Shown here piece by piece: positions 1,611 to 34,232 of a DNA stretch of 34,232 nt (positions within the stretch are counted from its first letter, which is position 1; every line of letters begins with the position of its first letter). The notes below the pieces were generated by a model. It saw only the letters and a list, made by a program, of their open reading frames with translations. It made no database searches and was not told the DNA's origin. This DNA comes from Oligoflexales bacterium (GTDB taxonomy: Bacteria > Bdellovibrionota_B > Oligoflexia > Oligoflexales > JAGOVF01), in contig JAGOVF010000021.1 in assembly GCA_018060885.1 (NCBI GenBank), positions 1-34,232 of the forward strand, given 5' to 3'. A program made the position numbers and the translations under genes.

Positions 1611-2984
1611 ATCCGCATCTAGTGACCCATCATCTTTTTTAGGATCTAAACCATTTTCTGTTTCCCATACATCAGGCATTCCATCTTGATCAGAATCAGT
1701 TAAATTATCTACGCCAAGCAAGTCCGGCCAACCACCGACTTCGGATGGGTCGTCTATTATTTCCCCACTACCATTTTTTACATCGTTAATAATTCTTTGG
1801 TCTACCGCATCACGAGGGCTTGCTCCAGCCTTTTCTAATACCCTGCTATAGGCTAATTCTGCGTCGATTATTGTTAAAGGGCTAGATGGGTGACTAGTGG
1901 CGATCAAATACTGATGTTGGTCAGCATCTACAACAAGCTTTTGGTCTAAATTTTGCTCGTTTCGATGCGGCCCAATATTTCCTGCAACGTAAACAGCGGC
2001 TCCAAAGCCATTATCAGCATCAATTTCAACTTCAAAAGACGAGTTTTTTGTGCTCTTACCGGCCTTGTAATAATTGCCTACAACATTCAAGGGCACTTTG
2101 GTTTGTGCGTCATTCGCTTCAGTAGCGACTATGCCCCAATTATAAATGACATTATTTACGAAATCGACGACACCAAAAGAAGCTTGGCGTAAATTTCTAT
2201 CTGCATTGTGGGCAAACAAATTTCTATGAACCGATATATTGCCGGTTTCTAGATCTGAGTTATATTTTTTGCCGGATACTGCAAATCCTTTTGAATGTTC
2301 ACCTTCTGAGTGAGTCGAATTTGAAAGCGCTTCAGAGATAATACTATTTTGAACGCTGACGTCTCTTACGCCATCGATTAAAGTAATATTATCATCTGTA
2401 GCCCAGGATATTGAACTTCTATCAATTATGATATTATGCGCAGCTTCTTCCATACGTATTGCACTTCTCATAGATGTTGCAGAATCACTCGCTCCTGTAC
2501 GAACGCGCAAACCGCGTATCACAACGTCATGAGTGACGATTTTGAGGCTTCCCTTATCGTAAGTCGCAGCAGAGCATATACTAATACCAGAGCCGGGAGC
2601 CGTTTGTCCTGCTATCGTAATATAAGGGGATTTAATTTTGATTTGGTCATTCAAAGTGATCGTACCAGCTACCTTAAAAATACACATTCGAGGCTCTTCT
2701 GCTTCGGCGCAAGATCGAAAGCTACCTGGACCGGAATCTTGCAAGTTGTTGACAAACATTACTTTGCCGCCTCGCCCACCTTTAGCATAAGCACCGAAGC
2801 CTTCTGCTCCAGGAAAAGCCTTCAGCTCTCCTTTAGAATTTCTATTACTTTGCTGTTCTTGATCTTCATCTAAGGGATTTTTTTTGCTGTCTATATCAAT
2901 GGGTAAAGAATTTTTATTGTCATTCTTCGATTGCGAGCAATTAAGTAAAATCAAAACAATTATTAGGCAACTTGGTTTATGCAT
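1563..2984 (-). CDS. Pectate-lyase-like beta-helix lipoprotein with Ca-binding C-terminus
   Basis: Predicted secreted polysaccharide lyase of the PL1-like superfamily. After a lipoprotein signal (LILLNC) comes the entry block AFPGAEGFGAYAKGGRGG and VNNLQDSGPGSFR, then repeated beta-helix rungs such as ITIAGQTAPGSGI and VVIRGLRVRTG. The last 45 residues carry an Asp-rich calcium-binding segment (DSDQDGMPDVWE, LDADKNGYSNIEDY), like TSP3/dockerin-type repeats. Reading is open from a TTG at 3050, but ATG 2984 places the signal peptide at the N-terminus and has GGGGTT upstream. Known members cleave pectate or related uronans; the substrate here is undetermined. It converges on the desaturase and stands alone. 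Confidence 0.85.
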   Translation of the reverse strand: MHKPSCLIIVLILLNCSQSKNDNKNSLPIDIDSKKNPLDEDQEQQSNRNSKGELKAFPGAEGFGAYAKGGRGGKVMFVNNLQDSGPGSFRSCAEAEEPRMCIFKVAGTITLNDQIKIKSPYITIAGQTAPGSGISICSAATYDKGSLKIVTHDVVIRGLRVRTGASDSATSMRSAIRMEEAAHNIIIDRSSISWATDDNITLIDGVRDVSVQNSIISEALSNSTHSEGEHSKGFAVSGKKYNSDLETGNISVHRNLFAHNADRNLRQASFGVVDFVNNVIYNWGIVATEANDAQTKVPLNVVGNYYKAGKSTKNSSFEVEIDADNGFGAAVYVAGNIGPHRNEQNLDQKLVVDADQHQYLIATSHPSSPLTIIDAELAYSRVLEKAGASPRDAVDQRIINDVKNGSGEIIDDPSEVGGWPDLLGVDNLTDSDQDGMPDVWETENGLDPKKDDGSLDADKNGYSNIEDYINSLL

Positions 2985-3041
2985 GTCGCTTAACCCCAAT
3001 ATACTGAAAGTTTTACGCGGCATAAAAACAAAATAAAGCAA

Positions 3042-3068
3042 TTGCCGCAACTATCAGCTGATCGGCAA
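3042..3068. promoter_or_regulatory. Inverted repeat upstream of the lyase gene, possible operator
   Basis: TTGCCG (3042-3047) and CGGCAA (3063-3068) form an inverted repeat, and the spacer ends with the perfect 10-base palindrome ATCAGCTGAT (3053-3062). It lies about 60-85 bases upstream of the lyase start, where a regulator could bind. No regulator gene is nearby, so the role is only inferred. Confidence 0.25.
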
Positions 3069-3215
3069 CTAGACTTCAGTTAATTAGAATTTAAAAATTG
3101 AATTACAAAATTGAACAGTTAGAACAAGACCTTTATATAAAGTCCAGACGTCCACTTTTTGAAATCGTAGAAAATTTAATTGCAGACATTACTCGGCTCA
3201 AAAAATAACGAAAGA

Positions 3216-3650
3216 TTATCCGATTTTGCCCGCATTTTTGCAGGTAAATTCTTTATCACCGATAAAAAGCACAAGATCTGAGCGAGATCGCAAGCCGGCA
3301 ATAAAAGAAACTACCTCTATTTTTGGAACTCGATTTATAGGGCGGGTAATTTGCATTGTCCATGTTACAAAATAATTTGCATTAACCACAGTAGGAGAGC
3401 CCGTATAAGTCTCCATATTTAAACCATTGTGGTCACCAACAGGAGACGGATTAAAATTTACCGTAAGAGCATTAGCACTGTCCCTATTCCGAACAAAAAC
3501 AAGCGCGCTGAGATTTGGGTCTCTCACAGAAGCGCAATCATACGCAGCTGGATAAAAAGCAAACGCGCTACTAGTAGAAAGTACGCTAAGTCCAGATGCA
3601 AAAATCAAACCTGCCAAAATTTTATTAATCTTTGAAATCAAACTAGGCAT
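3216..3650 (-). CDS. Small secreted protein of unknown function
   Basis: A 144-residue protein that I do not recognise. It begins with a clear Sec signal peptide (hydrophobic core LAGLIFASGLSVL, likely cleavage after SAFA before FYPAAYD). The mature part is about 110 residues, beta-rich in appearance, with one Cys near each end (YDCAS, FTCKN) that could form a single disulfide. The frame is open upstream to a start at 3725. ATG 3650 is chosen because AAGGGG lies just before it and the signal peptide would otherwise be internal. It has its own spacer on both sides (3051-3215 and 3651-3757), so it is probably monocistronic. Confidence 0.7.
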   Translation of the reverse strand: MPSLISKINKILAGLIFASGLSVLSTSSAFAFYPAAYDCASVRDPNLSALVFVRNRDSANALTVNFNPSPVGDHNGLNMETYTGSPTVVNANYFVTWTMQITRPINRVPKIEVVSFIAGLRSRSDLVLFIGDKEFTCKNAGKIG

Positions 3651-3757
3651 ATTTTCCCCTTTCAATAAGTCGTAAATTACAAATAAACAATTTAAATATC
3701 TCCCGAACTGCGCTGGAGTTATCATTTATTCCAAATAAACACAAGAATTAAGCAATT

Positions 3758-4258
3758 TTAGAAGAAATAACGTGCACCTATTGCAAAATCAACGTCGAGA
3801 ACAGTACTGGGGGTCAAATCCAAAATTAATGCGAACTCACTAAATAGCTCTAGAGGTACCTTATGAAATTCATAATAAACTCCGAAAGGTACTCGCACTC
3901 CTAAAAAATTCTCATCTTCCTTTCGGGGATGATCAAGTTGTAAAAATCTTCCTCCAATACCCCAGTAGGCATTCAAATATTCGCCATCGATCTTAAAATA
4001 ATTTTGCTGCGTAAAAAGATATGTCGCATGAAAATAAATTCGCCGTTGGCTGAGTAAAGACCACCCAGAAGCTACATCAAATGCTTGGTTGTTATTAATT
4101 TTCTTTTTATAAGTAAGACCCGTAGGGTCGTGTAAAATGAGACCGATGCCGTGTACTTTTTTTGATTGATTTGTTTTAGCAAGGCCCGAAGGCGCTTTTA
4201 GAAAAAACTCGATCACAAAAATTAAAAACAAAAATTTTATCATCTTCAAACAATTCAT
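3758..4258 (-). CDS. Predicted outer-membrane beta-barrel protein
   Basis: About 166 residues with a signal peptide (hydrophobic run FLFLIFVIEFF, likely cleavage after SGLA). It is followed by alternating polar/aromatic strands, for example YFHATYLF, NAYWGIGGRFL and VPFGVYYEF, and ends in the aromatic terminus GARYFF expected of barrels inserted by the Bam complex. It could be an eight-stranded barrel. No specific family is recognised. The start is uncertain: the frame opens at a TTG (4285), with ATGs at 4258 and 4243 and no clear ribosome binding site. It begins just after proS, so it may be read from the proS transcript. Confidence 0.6.
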   Translation of the reverse strand: MNCLKMIKFLFLIFVIEFFLKAPSGLAKTNQSKKVHGIGLILHDPTGLTYKKKINNNQAFDVASGWSLLSQRRIYFHATYLFTQQNYFKIDGEYLNAYWGIGGRFLQLDHPRKEDENFLGVRVPFGVYYEFHKVPLELFSEFALILDLTPSTVLDVDFAIGARYFF

Positions 4259-10844: not shown

Positions 10845-12647
10845 TCAATGTCCAGCAGTCACTAACTCTAAGCCCCACTTTACTAATAAGCCAGAATGAA
10901 ACGAGTCTATCTTCTGAGTTTTTATTTTTAAGAAGTTTTGCAATTCATTAATTATTTTTTCCAAGCGCGAATCATCCTGGCGCTGATTTATCGCCACGGC
11001 AAGCTCCAAACAATCAAGATACCAAAGCCATTCTTCAATATTTTGCGTTGCAGCTTTTTGCTGCAGAGTGACAATGGCTGATATGTGCTGTTCTAAGTCT
11101 TGATTAAGCGTAGCTGACTTTTCAACACGATCGCTGAGTTCTCTCAGTTCTTGATACAAACCAATTAATCGATTTTCCTGCAGTGAATAGGGCGTTTGTC
11201 GTCCCGGCTGAGTTGCAGCTTGTCCGACGTGTTGCTCACCGTAAGCAGCTACATCCGCGGGACCTCCACTGACAGATACAATTTTGTCGCCAACTGCTAA
11301 ATCAAACTCACCCCACTCCGGGGAAAATAATATTTCTACTCCACGAGTCACTTTACATTGACTAAAAGTCATTAGAAGCAAAGCACCATTTTTAGCGCGC
11401 AATAAATTTTTAAGACTACCTTCTAACAGAATTCCACTTTTAAACAGCAAACGACAAAATTCGCCTTCTACTATACCAACTTTTGATAACTGTTCAGTTG
11501 TAGCTTTGTGTAAGAGCAGCTCTGGATTTTTTTCGAGACGACCTAGAGGAGAGGAAAAGCCATCTGGATGGCGTTTACGATCATGACCCGCTAATTGTTT
11601 CTCACCATAAGAAAGAGCTACTGGTCCTTGAAATTTTATATAATCAACATTTTCATCGTTAGCGAAATAGTTTTGTAAAATCCCACTAATTTGCAAACCT
11701 GAATCTAAACAAGTTGTTGTAATAGTTCGGGCTTGTTTTGCGCGCTGCAGGCTATAGACACCTCCGCGTTGAAATGACATAAGTTTTTCCAATTGTTGCA
11801 AAACAGCAGTCAAGTGCGTAAAATCCTCCGCCACAAAAAGCTGCGGCTGAGGTTCGGTAATATCATAGCTAGTCTCAATGCAGTTTAAAGAAAGCCGAAT
11901 TTTTTTTACTGCATTCGATAAACAGTGGCGACTTTCACCTACTGAAGACAACAAACCCGCACCATAAATGCGCGGAGTCTCTAAACTACCAATAAGGCCG
12001 TATTCTGCGGTCCACCAATACATCCGCGCAACTTGACTAGCTTCCGATACAAAAGTGACATTCTCAATTGCTCGATTTAAACCAGCTTGAGCGGCAGTAA
12101 TATCTTCCTTAGTTTTATCTGGATTTTCTTTTGTATCGGAGAGAACACGTATCGCCTCGTAAAGCGAAATGTCTTCAACAGAAAATATGGCGTGCCGCGC
12201 TAACTTCGCATAGCTGGTCAAATAACGCGCATATTCTGGATCCGCGATTATCGGAGCGTGACCTGCTGCCTCATGGACAATATCGGGTGCTGGTGTATAA
12301 GCAATATGTTCAACTGTTCGCATATCTGCTGCTATGGGCAGTATTTGCATTGCTTGTAGCTCTATAAAAACAGATGGAGGTATAAAGCCTCGCACAGCTA
12401 CAGCGCCCCAACCAAATTCTCGTAAGGCTGCGTCCATTTCTGCAATTTTTGGAATGTAATTTTCGTGAATCGCTGTTTTTACTAGCCCGCTTAAATAAAC
12501 GGGAACAGCATGCTTCGCAAAATAATTGCGTGATTGTCGCATAATATAACGCCAAGCTGCCTGATCTCGCGCCGTATATTGAGAATAATCCTGTTGAACA
12601 AGATACTTTTGCAGATGATTAGGTACAGCATCATAAGAACTACGCAT
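10845..12647 (-). CDS. Long-form aromatic amino acid hydroxylase (phenylalanine 4-monooxygenase-like)
   Basis: Pterin-dependent, non-haem iron hydroxylase domain, probably Phe to Tyr, in a 600-residue protein; usual bacterial PhhA is about 260-300. Iron ligands are H125 and H130 in PDIVHEAAGH and E215 in WTAEYG; YGAGLLSS and GESRHCLS follow as in the family. The H130-to-E215 spacing is about 85 residues against about 40 in classical enzymes, so some 45 residues are inserted. The C-terminal ~270 residues form an extra region of unknown role with a predicted helical end. ATG 12647 has AAGGCG inside the preceding protease gene's last codons and a 3-base gap, which implies coupling. No pterin dehydratase (phhB) is nearby. 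Confidence 0.88.
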   Translation of the reverse strand: MRSSYDAVPNHLQKYLVQQDYSQYTARDQAAWRYIMRQSRNYFAKHAVPVYLSGLVKTAIHENYIPKIAEMDAALREFGWGAVAVRGFIPPSVFIELQAMQILPIAADMRTVEHIAYTPAPDIVHEAAGHAPIIADPEYARYLTSYAKLARHAIFSVEDISLYEAIRVLSDTKENPDKTKEDITAAQAGLNRAIENVTFVSEASQVARMYWWTAEYGLIGSLETPRIYGAGLLSSVGESRHCLSNAVKKIRLSLNCIETSYDITEPQPQLFVAEDFTHLTAVLQQLEKLMSFQRGGVYSLQRAKQARTITTTCLDSGLQISGILQNYFANDENVDYIKFQGPVALSYGEKQLAGHDRKRHPDGFSSPLGRLEKNPELLLHKATTEQLSKVGIVEGEFCRLLFKSGILLEGSLKNLLRAKNGALLLMTFSQCKVTRGVEILFSPEWGEFDLAVGDKIVSVSGGPADVAAYGEQHVGQAATQPGRQTPYSLQENRLIGLYQELRELSDRVEKSATLNQDLEQHISAIVTLQQKAATQNIEEWLWYLDCLELAVAINQRQDDSRLEKIINELQNFLKIKTQKIDSFHSGLLVKWGLELVTAGH

Positions 12648-28016: not shown

Positions 28017-28625
28017 CTACTCCGAACATTCATCATCTATGCCTGTGTCTTTAATTATGCAACTTTTAAAGCATTCAATGGCGTAAGGAACTCCATCAGT
28101 GCATTTATAACGAAACTTTTCCTTGCCAAAAGTTGTCCCGTCATCGTCTGACTTTGGACCGCAGGTCCAAAATTGCGCTCCGCTTCCCCTTACTGCAGAT
28201 TTTCTGCAAAGCCATTCCGAATATTCAACTCTCTTTTGTTCTGATTCTTTGGCATCATTTCCGGCTTCTTGGCCGCCTTCGGCAGAGTCAACTCCATCTG
28301 CTGAGTCAACTCCATCTGCTGAGTCAACTCCGCCTGCTGAGTCAACTCCATCTGCTGAGTCAACTCCATCTGCTGAGTCAACTCCATCTGCTGAGTCAAT
28401 TCCGTCTGCGGTGCCTGTGCCCACAGCCGTCCCAAATCCTTCTGCAGTACCAAAGCCTTCTGCAGTGCCTGTGCCCACAGCCGTCCCAAAACCTTCCGCA
28501 GCTCCAGTGCCTTCTGCTGTGCCTGTAGCTCTGACAGCATCGGCATTTTCATTAATTATAGGTGCTTTTCGCTCTTTGCAATGACACAAAATAGAAAAGA
28601 TAGAAATATATAATAAGCTTCGCAT
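28017..28625 (-). CDS. Repeat-containing lipoprotein of unknown function
   Basis: About 202 residues. The N-terminus (MRSLLYISIFSILCHCKE) is a short signal with a weak lipobox. The middle is low complexity: units of about 18 residues rich in G/T/A/E (AEGFGTAVGTGT), then seven 6-residue DSADGV repeats. The end is a 65-residue domain with six Cys (SEWLCRKS, FWTCGPK, YKCTDG, IECFKSCI, DDECSE), probably disulfide-bonded. ATG 28625 has GAGGT before it. Because all repeats are multiples of 3, several frames are open on both strands; the ribosome binding site, signal and Cys domain favour this one. I know no family for it. It diverges from the RCC1 gene. Confidence 0.7.
   Translation of the reverse strand: MRSLLYISIFSILCHCKERKAPIINENADAVRATGTAEGTGAAEGFGTAVGTGTAEGFGTAEGFGTAVGTGTADGIDSADGVDSADGVDSADGVDSAGGVDSADGVDSADGVDSAEGGQEAGNDAKESEQKRVEYSEWLCRKSAVRGSGAQFWTCGPKSDDDGTTFGKEKFRYKCTDGVPYAIECFKSCIIKDTGIDDECSE
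28285..28410. repeat. Seven tandem 18-bp repeats within the lipoprotein gene
   Basis: Exactly 7 x 18 bp of GAGTCAACTCCATCTGCT with few substitutions (one copy has GCCTGCT, the last ends TCCGTCTGCG). On the minus strand each copy encodes DSADGV or a variant. The near identity suggests recent expansion. Confidence 0.95.
28411..28518. repeat. Two tandem 54-bp repeats within the lipoprotein gene
   Basis: The stretch starting GTGCCTGTGCCCACAGCCGT at 28411 recurs at 28465, 54 bases later, with several point differences. Each encodes an 18-residue G/T/A/E-rich unit, so copy changes would keep the frame. Confidence 0.85.
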
Positions 28626-28860
28626 CAACTGACCTCATTTTTTATTATCATAGTGAAACTTATCGGATATAAGGGGCGCATTCTTTAAGAAGCATCCTCT
28701 AAATACGAGAGTTCTATATCTCTCAAAACTCTTCCGGCTTTCCATCTCCAACATAATGCCCTGAAATTATTTAACTAATAATTCCAGCTTAAATTTTTTC
28801 TAATATTTCCGATCCTTTACTTAAATACGGGGGTAGAACATTTCTAGAATTAGAAGAAAA
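28626..28860. promoter_or_regulatory. Shared upstream region of two divergent lipoprotein genes
   Basis: 235 bases separating the repeat lipoprotein and the RCC1 giant. It must hold both promoters. A TATGATAAT stretch lies upstream of the repeat lipoprotein on the minus strand, but no good -35 partner is visible. An imperfect inverted repeat GAGAG...CTCTC occurs near 28708-28725. Confidence 0.3.
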
Positions 28861-31800
28861 TTGACATCTCTAGGCGCCAGGAATTGTTGGCTACCTTTTC
28901 TATTATTTGTCTTAGTTATTTCAAATCTCGGCTGCCAAGAGGCAGCGACTACAGATGAAGAATCTTCAGCAGCTTCTCCAGGTTGGGTAAGATCTCCAGT
29001 AGATACCAGAGAAGAAATAGTTGATGAAGAAAACGACGAAACGATTTTTAATGAAGATCTACCTGAAGAATTTTCTATTATTGCCCCACTAACAGTCATT
29101 AATACACCAGAATTTGAAGCCGAATGGACAAGACCAAAAGATTTAAAAGATTACGACATTATTCTCGGTAGTAGCGAAAAGTGCGCTACAAGCCCGCTTG
29201 CAGTTTTCCCCGACTACAAAAAACAAAAACTGCCCTTAGGACCTCTTGACGATGGTATCTACTTTTTATGTATTCAAGCAATTACCAAAGAAAAGCTTAA
29301 AATGGCGACAAACTCGCCCTACATATTCACGATAGATACTGTTCCTCCTGGTGAGTTTTCTCTGACAGAAATTGCAAGCCCAACTTCTCAATCAGAACTA
29401 ACTGTCACTTGGTCAGAATCTGCGGACGCCGTTTCATACGAAATTTCAATTTCTGAGAGCGATTCTTGCGAGGAACCTCTGGAAACTCAATCTTTCGAAA
29501 CAGTTACTGAAGCAATCTTTGTTATAGATTTAGATGGGTCTTATTTTGTTTGTGCAACTTCCACCGATATCGCAGGAAATAAAACAACAGTAAGCAACCA
29601 AGGTATGAATGTCGTTATTGATACAAGCATACCGCAAATAATAGACGTATCGACAACAAAAGACGACGGATCCTATAAACAAGGCGAGCAAATTTCTATT
29701 CAGGTAAAGTATAGTGAAGCGGTATTTTTTTCTCCACTTAATCAGCAAAGCGCTTCTTTGAAATTAGAAACAGGTACTAACGATAGATTAGCAAGCTATG
29801 TTAGTGGGCATGGGACTGACACTTTAACGTTTAGCTACACGATACAAAATGGCGATACTAGCGCTGATCTAGAAGTTCACAATGATACTCCACAAATCAC
29901 ATTACCAGCAAATGTCAAAATCACTGACCACGTTGGAAATAATACCGATATTGGGTCAACTTATATCAATCAACTATGGCTCAGCGAATCGAGCGCACTC
30001 ATAATAGATACGCTTTCCCCCTCTGTCATCAGTATAGATTCTAGCAATACAAATGGTTCCTATAAAGTTGGCGAATTAATTGAAGTAGAGTTGAATTTCA
30101 ACGAGTCGGTATTTGTGAGCGGCGGCAATCCAAGCATTGTTTTAAATATACAAAACACTCAGCGAAGTGCTACTTATCTTCGAGGTAGCGGTAGCGAAAC
30201 CTTAGTTTTTGGCTACACAATTTTGGCTGGAGACTATCAAAATGATCTAGACATTGCTGCAGATAGCAACAGCATAAATCTTTTAGGTGCCAGTATATTA
30301 GATCATGCAAATAATGCTGCGACATTGAGCCTTCCGATATCGCCTGCACTTGGTTCTCTGGCAGTGCGCAGTGAAATAGAAATTGATGGCGTTTTGCCAA
30401 CTGTGAATGTAGGTGCAGATTTGCTTGTCAATTCTGCAAGCACTATCAGCCCAATTGCTACGGATAATTATGAACTAAGCAGCTATAGCTGGACCCAAAT
30501 TTCCGGCGATGGAGATTTACAGTTTTCAGATCCAACTGAATCTGAATCAGAAGTCAGCGCCGATGAGGATGGTGAATACACTCTTCGATTTACTGCCTAC
30601 GATTTAGCTGGAAACGCCAACTACGATGAATTGAATTTTATTTGGGACACGACAGAACCATTAGTAAACCTTGGTGCCGATGTAACTACGAACTCGAGCC
30701 ATACAACTAATAGCACGACAAGCGATTTAAATGGTATAGAGACTTTTACTTGGTCCAAGATAAGCGGCCCAGGTAACATTAACTTTACTGCTGCCACATC
30801 TGCCAATACTTCAATTTCAGCTGATACCGATGGTACCTATGTCATCCGATTAACAATTGTAGATAGCGCAGGAAATTCTGCCTTTGATGAAATCAATTTC
30901 ATCTGGGACACAACCCCACCAGAAGCACCTCCCGCTTTGCAAATTCAAGCTGCATCTTTTAGAAATAATTTAGAATGGAACCTCAGCAGTGGATCTACTA
31001 TTGGCTATATTGTCGCCCGACGCACTGCCAGCCCTGTTGATTTCACTCCTACAGATGGCGTAGATTACCAAGTCGGCGGAATAGATCTCAACAATAGAAT
31101 AGTTTATAAAGGTAGCAGCGAATCTTATGATGGCTACGGACTGCAAACATCAAGCGTCTATCATTACGCAGTCTTCGCTTACGACGCTCTCTACAATTAT
31201 TCTGCTGCTAGTACAGCCAATGCCACGCCGCTGGGCAGTGACAATTTAGGCAGCTCTACCCCGCACAAAATAGCCGTGGGATATAATTCGAGTGGCAATG
31301 GCCATCAGACTTGCGCATTGATGGCAAACAGCCATTTAAAGTGTTGGGGCTATGACGATGATGGCGCTTTAGGCAGAGCTGCAACAAATGACGAATCACT
31401 TGGCGATGAAACAAATGAAATGGGTGATGATCTTCTTGCTTTGGATTTGGGTGAGCATACGAAAATTCAAGATTTTCACTATGGCAGTGATCGCGGTTGT
31501 ATTATCACAAGCCTTGGTAGTATCAAATGTTGGGGAAGTGTCGCAGCAACAGATTCTTGCAATCTAGGATATGGTGACACTTTAAGCAGAGGATACACTG
31601 CAAATAGCATGGGTTCGAATTTGCCTAATATTGATCTAGGTACTGATGAAAAATTCAAAACTATCGGCGGAACCGCAGGAAATTTTTGCGCAATAACTTT
31701 AGAAAATAAATTAAAATGTTGGGGCTGCAATAGCCTATCAGGCGCACTTTATGGTTACGGAGATTCCTCTGCTAGAGGGCACAATTCTGGATCTATGGGA

Positions 31801-33807
31801 GATAATTTAGGCTTTGTAGATCTAGGAACTAACCAATTCCCCATGGAAATCTCTCGCAGTGACAATGATTCGATTTGCGTAATTTTACAAAACAGAAAAA
31901 TAAAATGCTGGGGTGATAATAGCTTCGGCCATTTGGGTTATGGCGATACGACTACACGAGGTGGTTTAACTAATCAAATGGGCGACGATCTTCCTTTCGT
32001 CGACTTGGGTACTGATGCCGCTGTTTGGAAAATTTCTGGCAATGGCGGCAACCCAACGCTGAAATTTAATTGCGCATTACTTTTGAACGGGCAAATAAAA
32101 TGTTGGGGAGCAAACACCGACGGCAACCTAGGCTATGGGGATACGATACAACGCGGCGACCAGAGCGACGAAATGGGGGCTGATTTGCCCAATATAGATC
32201 TAGGAACGAATAAACGTGCCATTGATTTAGCTGTCGGGAATCGCTTTGTGTGCGCACTGCTTTCAGGCGGCAACCAAGTATGTTGGGGCTACAATATTGC
32301 AGGCTCTCATGGTAATAGTGTTATTGAAGCCATCGGCGATGAGGCTGATGAAATGGGTGATAATTTGGCGCAAGTTGATTTTGGTGTCGGATCAATACGA
32401 CCAACAAAAATATTCGCAGGCTGGAGTAGTTGCGCCATGTTGAGCGATGGCAGTTTAAAATGCTTTGGCGATAATAGCGCTGGTCTTTTAGGTTATGGCG
32501 ATATGCTAACCAGACAAGTTCCAGCAGATTTTTCTGCAATGAACCTTGGCACTGAAACCGCTGGGACCATAGAACTTGCAGCTTTTAACGAGCATCGTTG
32601 CATGTTGTCAGGCAGCCACCAAGTCAAGTGTTTTGGGCAAGGTGGAGCAAAACTAGGCTACGGGGATTCGATTTCAAGAGGCCTAGATGTTTCGCAACTC
32701 TCCGATCAACTTCCTATTTTAAATCTCGGAACAAATCTCAGAGCAAAACAAATTAGCGCAGGAGCAGAACACACTTGCGCCGTCGATCAGCTAGGAGAGG
32801 CAAAATGTTGGGGTCAAGGAGATCGTTTAGGGCTTGGAGACACGATATCTCGTGGTGATAATTCCAACGAAATGGATGATTCTTTGCCTTATTTAAACTT
32901 CGGTGCGAATTTAAAAGTGCGAAAAGTAAAAGCCGGCGGTGAACATAGCTGCGCAATTTTAGATAATGGTCTTGTAAAATGCTGGGGCCAAAATTCTTTC
33001 GGGCAATTAGGCTATGGCGACACACTTCCACGTGGAACTCAATTAAGCTACTCTCTGAGTAATACGCCTTTTTTGGACTTAGGTAGCAATGTGCAAGTTT
33101 ATGAACTCGAGCTTGGAAGACTGCATTCTTGCGCGCTGCTCGACACAAATAGCGTAAAATGCTGGGGCGCAAACAGCAGCGACGGCGTACTTGGCTACGG
33201 CGATAGTCTTGTGAGAGGCGATTCTAGCAATGAAATGGGTGATTTTTTGCCCACACTAAATCTTGGTAGCAACTTAGCTATAACGCACTTACCTAAGCTA
33301 GGAAGTCAATTTAGCTGTGTTCAAACTACTGTAGGCCCTAAATGCTGGGGAGCTAGTAGCGGTTTTGGCAAGCTGGGCTATGGCGACAATCTTAGTCGGG
33401 GAAGTAGCGTTACACAAATGAGCGATTTGCTGCCAGCTATAGCCCTTGCCGCAGCTCAATCGGCCTTGCAAATAAAACTTGGCTACCATCACGTTTGCGC
33501 CATTCTTGATAATCAGCAAATGAAATGTTGGGGCAGAAATACACATTACCAACTTGGTTACGGCGATCAAGTTCAGCGTGGATCTTCAGCTAATCAAATG
33601 GGTAACAATCTGGCAGAAGTAAGCATAGATGCAAATGTAGCCATCAAATCGTTAAGTTTAGGTGCAAGTACGAGCTGCATGTTGCTAACAAACGGAAGAA
33701 TCAAATGCTGGGGCTCAAACCTCTACGGTGCCGCTGGAGCCGAGCTCGATAATTATCTCGGCAATGATTTTGAAACCCCTAATTTGCAAGACTTTAGCGA
33801 CTTTTAA
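28861..33807 (+). CDS. Giant lipoprotein with Ig-like modules and 14 RCC1-type repeats
   Basis: 1648 residues. Signal peptide with lipobox SNLGC, then acidic linker. Next come two FN3/Ig-like segments (about 60-255), two SwmB/cadherin-like repeats (about 260-375 and 390-505; each has GSYK-GE and S-T-TL-F-YTI), two PKD-like modules (about 510-690, each ending FIWDTTEP/FIWDTTPP), an FN3-like module (695-795), and 14 RCC1-type repeats (about 810-1640). Each repeat has C-x8-11-CWG (or CFG) and mostly LGYGDTxxRG, about 50 residues apart. Start TTG 28861 has AGAAGAAA before it; a rare ATT at 28840 with GGGGG upstream would also fit. Likely surface-exposed binding or adhesion protein; ligand unknown. 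Confidence 0.9.
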   Translation: MTSLGARNCWLPFLLFVLVISNLGCQEAATTDEESSAASPGWVRSPVDTREEIVDEENDETIFNEDLPEEFSIIAPLTVINTPEFEAEWTRPKDLKDYDIILGSSEKCATSPLAVFPDYKKQKLPLGPLDDGIYFLCIQAITKEKLKMATNSPYIFTIDTVPPGEFSLTEIASPTSQSELTVTWSESADAVSYEISISESDSCEEPLETQSFETVTEAIFVIDLDGSYFVCATSTDIAGNKTTVSNQGMNVVIDTSIPQIIDVSTTKDDGSYKQGEQISIQVKYSEAVFFSPLNQQSASLKLETGTNDRLASYVSGHGTDTLTFSYTIQNGDTSADLEVHNDTPQITLPANVKITDHVGNNTDIGSTYINQLWLSESSALIIDTLSPSVISIDSSNTNGSYKVGELIEVELNFNESVFVSGGNPSIVLNIQNTQRSATYLRGSGSETLVFGYTILAGDYQNDLDIAADSNSINLLGASILDHANNAATLSLPISPALGSLAVRSEIEIDGVLPTVNVGADLLVNSASTISPIATDNYELSSYSWTQISGDGDLQFSDPTESESEVSADEDGEYTLRFTAYDLAGNANYDELNFIWDTTEPLVNLGADVTTNSSHTTNSTTSDLNGIETFTWSKISGPGNINFTAATSANTSISADTDGTYVIRLTIVDSAGNSAFDEINFIWDTTPPEAPPALQIQAASFRNNLEWNLSSGSTIGYIVARRTASPVDFTPTDGVDYQVGGIDLNNRIVYKGSSESYDGYGLQTSSVYHYAVFAYDALYNYSAASTANATPLGSDNLGSSTPHKIAVGYNSSGNGHQTCALMANSHLKCWGYDDDGALGRAATNDESLGDETNEMGDDLLALDLGEHTKIQDFHYGSDRGCIITSLGSIKCWGSVAATDSCNLGYGDTLSRGYTANSMGSNLPNIDLGTDEKFKTIGGTAGNFCAITLENKLKCWGCNSLSGALYGYGDSSARGHNSGSMGDNLGFVDLGTNQFPMEISRSDNDSICVILQNRKIKCWGDNSFGHLGYGDTTTRGGLTNQMGDDLPFVDLGTDAAVWKISGNGGNPTLKFNCALLLNGQIKCWGANTDGNLGYGDTIQRGDQSDEMGADLPNIDLGTNKRAIDLAVGNRFVCALLSGGNQVCWGYNIAGSHGNSVIEAIGDEADEMGDNLAQVDFGVGSIRPTKIFAGWSSCAMLSDGSLKCFGDNSAGLLGYGDMLTRQVPADFSAMNLGTETAGTIELAAFNEHRCMLSGSHQVKCFGQGGAKLGYGDSISRGLDVSQLSDQLPILNLGTNLRAKQISAGAEHTCAVDQLGEAKCWGQGDRLGLGDTISRGDNSNEMDDSLPYLNFGANLKVRKVKAGGEHSCAILDNGLVKCWGQNSFGQLGYGDTLPRGTQLSYSLSNTPFLDLGSNVQVYELELGRLHSCALLDTNSVKCWGANSSDGVLGYGDSLVRGDSSNEMGDFLPTLNLGSNLAITHLPKLGSQFSCVQTTVGPKCWGASSGFGKLGYGDNLSRGSSVTQMSDLLPAIALAAAQSALQIKLGYHHVCAILDNQQMKCWGRNTHYQLGYGDQVQRGSSANQMGNNLAEVSIDANVAIKSLSLGASTSCMLLTNGRIKCWGSNLYGAAGAELDNYLGNDFETPNLQDFSDF
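31264..33750 (+). repeat. Fourteen RCC1-like protein repeats (beta-propeller array)
   Basis: Fourteen units begin with a Cys-containing strand and K/V-C-W/F-G, most followed by LGYGDT-x2-RG and MGDxLPxxDLG. Fourteen equals two seven-bladed RCC1 propellers. Repeats 6, 7 and 14 deviate most. DNA copies are well diverged, so the array is old and stable. Confidence 0.85.
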
Positions 33808-33945
33808 TGAGTTATTTTTAAAACTTATACTTCACAAAATACAGAAAAAACAAGCTAAAGGCAGATGACTTTATCTAAAAAATCGTCTAGCCTAATTGAA
33901 TTCACATTTCCATCTTTTAGATTTGTTTTTAGGGGGTTTTTTTTG

Positions 33946-34232
33946 ATGAATTTATTTATTTTTGCGCAACGTTTTTTTATTTTTTTCATTTTAATTTCGT
34001 TAAGCAATTGCCAAAGTTTTCAAAAAATGGTCAAGGGCAGTGATAGTGCAACTGGACCACAACAAGCTATTGAGGCACGCAAAGCTTTTGATAAAAAAAC
34101 ATATAAAGAAATTAAACTTGAAAATGAGCTTCGCATTTTACTGGTTAGCGACCCTCAGGCAAAACAATGCGCTGCATCAATGAATGTAAATGTTGGTAGT
34201 CTTTCTAACCCAAAAGAAATGCAAGGTTTAGC
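33946..34232 (+). CDS. M16 (insulinase/pitrilysin-like) peptidase lipoprotein, N-terminal part cut by window end
   Basis: The first 95 residues are visible. A signal peptide ends in the lipobox LSNC, then a linker. ELRILLVSDPQAKQCAASMNVNVGSLSNPKEMQGLA follows in two pieces: ILLVSDP is the first beta strand and VGSLSNPKEMQGLA is the stretch that precedes the zinc motif HxxEH in M16 peptidases. The catalytic motif itself is beyond the window, so activity cannot be judged. ATG 33946 has AGGGGG 9 bases upstream. It lies 138 bases after the RCC1 gene on the same strand. Confidence 0.8.
   Translation, partial: MNLFIFAQRFFIFFILISLSNCQSFQKMVKGSDSATGPQQAIEARKAFDKKTYKEIKLENELRILLVSDPQAKQCAASMNVNVGSLSNPKEMQGL

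Follow-up and report, generated by a model that had tools for sequence, protein, structure and literature searches.

Gene and neighborhood

The window analyzed here is a 34,232-nucleotide stretch of contig JAGOVF010000021.1 from an Oligoflexales bacterium. On its forward strand, an open reading frame with a TTG start codon (28861-33807) encodes a 1648-aa protein in which an N-terminal signal peptide is followed by Ig-like and PKD modules and a long array of RCC1 units. The signal peptide (aa 1-24, MTSLGARNCWLPFLLFVLVISNLG; 28861..28932, + strand) was assigned from hydrophobicity and sequence; its 11-residue hydrophobic maximum is 2.85, and an Arg precedes the hydrophobic stretch. The next residue, Cys25 (28933..28935, + strand), is a putative lipidation site within the lipobox N-L-G-C. 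Measured against the consensus that we applied ([LVI][ASTVI][GAS]C), this lipobox is non-canonical, with Asn at position -3 where L is usual.

The first-pass annotation described the protein as an exported lipoprotein. Export is supported by the enrichment of signal peptides among related proteins: based on a simple hydrophobicity test, 70 of 85 ORFs with cysteine-paired RCC1 repeats (Cys-RCC1 ORFs) have a signal-like N-terminus, compared with 88 of 277 other long ORFs at the same loci. A lipobox-like Cys follows the signal-like segment in 45 of the 85 Cys-RCC1 ORFs (complete N-termini) and in 23 of the 277 other ORFs. The signal-like segment and Cys25 are both in place, but since N-L-G-C departs from the consensus at -3, we consider lipidation of Cys25, and with it the lipid anchor, probable and not certain.

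The flanking genes include housekeeping genes (an acsA-like gene lies upstream), and we found no partner gene or conserved neighbor beside the RCC1 protein gene that would hint at a ligand. Downstream, an M16-like gene (33865-34230, + strand) runs off the window; the part inside it encodes the beginning of an M16 (pitrilysin-like) peptidase, in which the lipoprotein-like signal reads LSNC. Peptidases of the M16 family are likewise listed among Myxococcus xanthus vesicle proteins (PMC4158809). On the reverse strand, 28017-28628 encodes a small putative lipoprotein of 203 aa that carries a run of almost identical GTAEGFGTA / DGVDSA repeats and has Cys in its C-terminus, for which Pfam and NCBIfam returned no match, and 10845-12647 encodes a 600-aa protein that matches biopterin-dependent aromatic amino acid hydroxylase in two stretches. 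A promoter and terminator scan performed no better than on shuffled sequences, and Rfam identified no family in the window. Comparisons with phages (one phage, in two records, matched weakly) and plasmids (22 records, all at <60% identity) gave no sign of mobile origin.

Stalk modules

Two Ig-like modules that resemble each other lie closest to the N-terminus, both on the + strand like all modules below. Module 1 (aa ~70-160; 29068..29340) was recognized from sequence, and a Pfam search with this segment alone matched no family; module 2 (aa ~165-258; 29353..29634) is Big_13-like, with an E-value of 1e-4 on the segment. Each has its own Cys pair, ~28 residues apart (108/137 in module 1 and 203/231 in module 2). 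Two further beta-sandwich-like modules (aa ~258-515; 29632..30405), also delimited by sequence, are mutually alike and share the pattern GSYKxGE.I...F.E.V. Searched alone, they matched no Pfam family; segments in many long ORFs of relatives match them.

Two K319L-like PKD modules follow at aa ~528-596 (30442..30648; Pfam E-value 1e-9) and aa ~612-679 (30694..30897; 9e-12). Between them and the RCC1 units is a linker or possible FN3-like module of ~110 aa (aa ~690-800; 30928..31260) without a Pfam match. In the Pfam scan of the whole protein, K319L-like PKD was identified in two stretches (E-value 7e-18; 64.9 bits against a cut-off of 27), along with Big_13 (8e-8; 33.1 bits against 27) and Big_3_2 (27.7 bits against 23.3). 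The profile search thus bears out the first-pass placement of Ig/PKD modules ahead of the RCC1 units.

RCC1 units and cysteine pairs

The C-terminal region contains exactly 14 C-x(n)-C[WF]G units, with a start-to-start spacing of 56-65 aa and second Cys residues that span aa 828-1616. In 13 units the second Cys follows the first at a distance of 10 residues, and in unit 12 at 9; in every unit it lies within CWG or CFG. The earlier count of exactly 14 repeats, each with a Cys pair and C[WF]G, was therefore confirmed (14/14 units). Units 1-7 (aa ~800-1231; 31258..32553, + strand) form proposed propeller 1, supported by Pfam, the Cys pattern and array sizes in relatives, with Cys pairs 818/828, 880/890, 943/953, 1006/1016, 1071/1081, 1131/1141 and 1191/1201. 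Units 8-14 (aa ~1232-1648; 32554..33804, + strand) form proposed propeller 2, supported by an AlphaFold2 model and Foldseek, with Cys pairs 1247/1257, 1306/1316, 1364/1374, 1424/1434, 1486/1495, 1546/1556 and 1606/1616.

The Pfam scan matched WD40_RLD (RCC1-like domain, PF25390; E-value 1e-67), RCC1_2 (PF13540; 1e-60, 11 stretches) and RCC1 (PF00415; 3e-19). All three far exceeded their curated cut-offs (229.4 bits against 150, 200.6 against 22 and 69.9 against 21.7, respectively). All 36 Cys residues could be placed: C9 in the signal peptide, C25, the two pairs of the Ig-like modules, 28 in the 14 units, and two extra residues at aa 900 (31558-31560) and aa 956 (31726-31728). These last two lie just past the CWG of units 2 and 3, and they possibly form a disulfide between neighboring blades.

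Evidence for disulfides within units

It had been proposed that the two Cys of each unit form a disulfide. Using a Cys-blinded profile over the repeats of relatives, we identified 765 repeats with both Cys, 36 with neither and 6 with only one, whereas independence of the two positions would give ~2 with neither; among Cys-type proteins alone, the corresponding numbers were 760, 14 and 5. Joint loss of both residues is the trace expected from a pairwise bond within the unit. These counts omit repeats gapped at either Cys column, the ORFs were partly chosen by Cys motifs, and the repeats are non-independent, so the associated p-value (1e-56) is not literal. Both AlphaFold2 models agree in placing the two Cys on adjacent strands; in the model of units 8-14, these strands belong to one hairpin in each unit, with positions 85 and 95, for example, on strands 83-88 and 93-97. 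Joint retention or loss and proximity in the model both support the predicted intra-unit disulfides.

The genome encodes VKOR and DsbA matches within one 424-aa frame as well as three further DsbA-like matches, indicating that an oxidative route exists; a search of the same genome for DsbB found none. That the conserved Cys are metal or haem ligands, or a relic of the lineage, appears extremely improbable, given that the two residues of a unit sit on neighboring hairpin strands, are kept or lost jointly, and belong to exported proteins. The same motif, C(X10)CWG, is present in the seven extracellular RCC1-like repeats of CRINKLY4, where intra-repeat disulfides were proposed by modeling and described as likely (PMC4617170).

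Grouping of units in sevens

Homologues were collected both within the order and class and in named genomes from other phyla, and we counted the units in each array. A combined count was used, as a plain HMM count misses degenerate units and gave 11 for the 1648-aa protein. Among 101 complete arrays in related loci, size 7 was by far the most common (n = 58) and size 14 formed a second mode (n = 14); sizes 8-13 together accounted for 14 arrays and sizes 15-16 for 3, and the rest were shorter. Clusters formed at 50% identity numbered 71, of which 38 had size 7 and 7 had size 14. In one protein from an Anaerolineae MAG (L045), three arrays of exactly 7 units are separated by gaps of ~170 aa. Array sizes that peak at 7 and 14 are the pattern required by closed seven-bladed rings. 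Sizes off multiples of seven remained after lenient counting in L059 (16 units), L063 (15), L099 (10), and L062 and L066 (8 each); part of the odd sizes in the sample stem from degenerate units missed by the profile, but a few, such as those of L059 and L099, look real.

AlphaFold2 modeled units 8-14 with a pLDDT of 89.4 and a pTM of 0.88 from a 47-row alignment. Foldseek aligned this model to UVR8 (6dd7; TM (target) 0.87), the ACR4 ectodomain (0.71), human RCC1 (0.70) and also HERC2 domains, and a seven-bladed RCC1 propeller is the fold supported by the model for these units. The alignment was assembled from seven-unit stretches, so the model tells us that a propeller can be closed by seven units and not where the boundary lies. 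A model of all 14 units (860 residues, 12 homologues) reached a pLDDT of only 51 and a pTM of 0.46, insufficient for a verdict on closure, and both the first ring and the joint between propellers are accordingly read from the family pattern. Of the two seven-bladed propellers in the first-pass annotation, the seven-fold grouping (58 + 14 of 101 arrays) and the confident model of units 8-14 speak for the arrangement, but joint closure did not emerge from the structure prediction of the full region.

We also considered a single continuous superstructure, either a 14-blade ring or an open array. Units 7 and 8 adjoin without a linker (spacing 56 aa), the 14-unit model has low confidence, and the similarity between units i and i+7 is no higher than that between other unit pairs, all of which would suit such a structure. 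The prevalence of sevens with a second mode at 14, the well-separated arrays of 7 in some proteins, and the confident closure of units 8-14 when modeled alone make it very unlikely. The 14 units are best read as two consecutive seven-bladed propellers, which would close side by side. The absence of an i/i+7 excess also leaves no trace of whole-propeller duplication.

Relatives and known systems

RCC1 repeat proteins with the Cys pair and CWG were identified in the same order and class and in Gammaproteobacteria, Nannocystis, Polyangiaceae, Actinomycetota, an Anaerolineae MAG and a Marine Group II archaeon. Within the order, a similar layout with a lipoprotein signal occurs in L051 (Big, PKD and 14 units) and L054 (four PKD modules and 7 units). 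The same genome has other Cys-RCC1 ORFs on contigs C76 (14 units), C155 (14 short units) and C64 (7 short units), a fragment on C214, and a stalk-only relative on C53; paralogues within this one genome are not uniform in repeat length or loop content. The SpoT-like protein encoded by this genome shares only 39-48% identity with its counterparts in the named genomes that were compared. The view that the protein is the most distinctive in the window, by an unusual combination of features, was not upheld, as L051, L054 and the paralogue L048 have like layouts and CRINKLY4 ectodomains share the C(X10)CWG design. The protein is a well-supported example of a widespread, functionally uncharacterized bacterial type and not a new kind.

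The repeated loops noted in the first pass are present in most units but not in all 14: LG[YLFHN]G[DN] occurs in 10, and the full GD..EMGD.L form in 3, with relaxed forms in more. The motif GDxxxEMGDxLPxxDLG also occurs in the Gammaproteobacteria (L039), in the Myxococcota, with Nannocystis (L040) and a Polyangiaceae MAG (L043), and in one archaeon of Marine Group II (L041). Since several phyla share the motif, it marks a subfamily rather than a protein-specific ligand, and the shared ligand surface that had been read from these loops lost its support.

L068 (G000:C155:1-6000, 2163-3881) and L069 (G000:C64:1-4000, 774-1703), both from the same genome as the 1648-aa protein, have Cys-paired RCC1-like repeats of ~37 aa in 14 and 7 units, respectively; their best likeness is to BLIP-II (4e-41 and 6e-33), and ACR4/CR4 ectodomains match too. 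L070 (G006:C34), L072 and L073 are RCC1 arrays without Cys pairs, and since L070 combines 7 units with a signal-like N-terminus, export does not need the Cys pattern. One genome of the same class (G053) has 27 RCC1-like domain matches, a number well above that of any other genome in the class sample.

The closest known systems are exported bacterial proteins of the RCC1_2 type (PF13540 / COG5184, “alpha-tubulin suppressor-like”), which share the Cys pair, CWG, 7 or 14 units, the signal peptide and Ig/PKD stalks; the protein studied here differs in its long units (~60 aa), its GDxxxEMGDxLPxxDLG loop, and its 14 units rather than the more common 7. CRINKLY4 family members are receptor kinases with seven crinkly repeats, a TNFR-like domain, a transmembrane domain and a kinase. 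The CRINKLY4/ACR4 ectodomain (PDB 7a0j, 7a0k) resembles the 1648-aa protein in its Cys-paired propeller and in the fold match given above, but it is the single propeller of a receptor kinase and has ~39-aa repeats with three strands per blade; L068 and L069 lie nearer to CRINKLY4/ACR4 and BLIP-II than the 1648-aa protein does. The Pfam scan of the latter contained no TNFR-like or kinase family, and membership in the CRINKLY4 family was rejected, the resemblance being limited to the Cys-paired propeller.

The propellers of UVR8, RCC1 and HERC2 (RLD) have the same seven-bladed RCC1 fold; however, they are intracellular, and UVR8 has no paired Cys in the printed alignments. BLIP-II is a secreted bacterial seven-bladed RCC1-like binder, a beta-lactamase inhibitor (PMC9218822); it differs in its short repeats, single propeller, lack of a stalk, and lack of Cys pairs in the printed alignments. 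An RCC1 repeat protein of M. xanthus, MXAN_0889, was found in the outer membrane vesicle fraction (PMC4158809), a likeness by description.

Proposed role

Repeat number, Cys pairing pattern, the seven-fold grouping of the family, the fold of units 8-14 and the export signal are computational observations, and with them in hand we propose the following role. The protein would be exported and then probably anchored by lipid in the outer membrane, exposed at the surface, with the N-terminal Ig-like and PKD modules as a stalk and the C-terminal units as the paired propellers. In each blade, a disulfide formed after export by a VKOR/DsbA-type system would clamp the hairpin of the “hxC” strand and the “KCWG” strand. 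The propeller faces may serve as an adhesin- or receptor-like platform for proteins or glycans, by analogy to BLIP-II, UVR8, RCC1 and probably CRINKLY4. Taken as a whole, an exported, lipid-anchored, disulfide-clamped binding protein with two propellers is the reading that we consider likely.

Alternatively, the 14 units could be a passive spacer or envelope scaffold, or part of a periplasm-facing lipoprotein, without a surface ligand-binding role. The conservation of GDxxxEMGDxLPxxDLG across phyla is easier to reconcile with maintenance of the fold than with a binding face that varies; no partner gene adjoins, and the lipobox is only weakly canonical. Against this, the solved seven-bladed relatives BLIP-II, UVR8, RCC1 and HERC2 are binding platforms or modules, stalks built of Ig/PKD modules are characteristic of surface proteins, and the paralogues of this genome vary in repeat length and loop content; we regard a purely passive role as possible but unlikely. 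A broader proposal goes beyond the binding-protein reading: Cys-paired RCC1 propellers might constitute a large exported prokaryotic superfamily of receptors and adhesins from which the plant CRINKLY4 ectodomain derives, with tandem double propellers acting as bivalent surface receptors in this order. This is speculative, and we think it rather doubtful.

The name RCC1 comes from a nuclear protein, although members of the Cys-paired family abound in some groups of bacteria. Units in sevens, Cys pairs within the unit, and export together argue against the intracellular roles that the name implies. Such a structural rule for Cys-RCC1 proteins opens a binding role at the cell envelope to direct testing.
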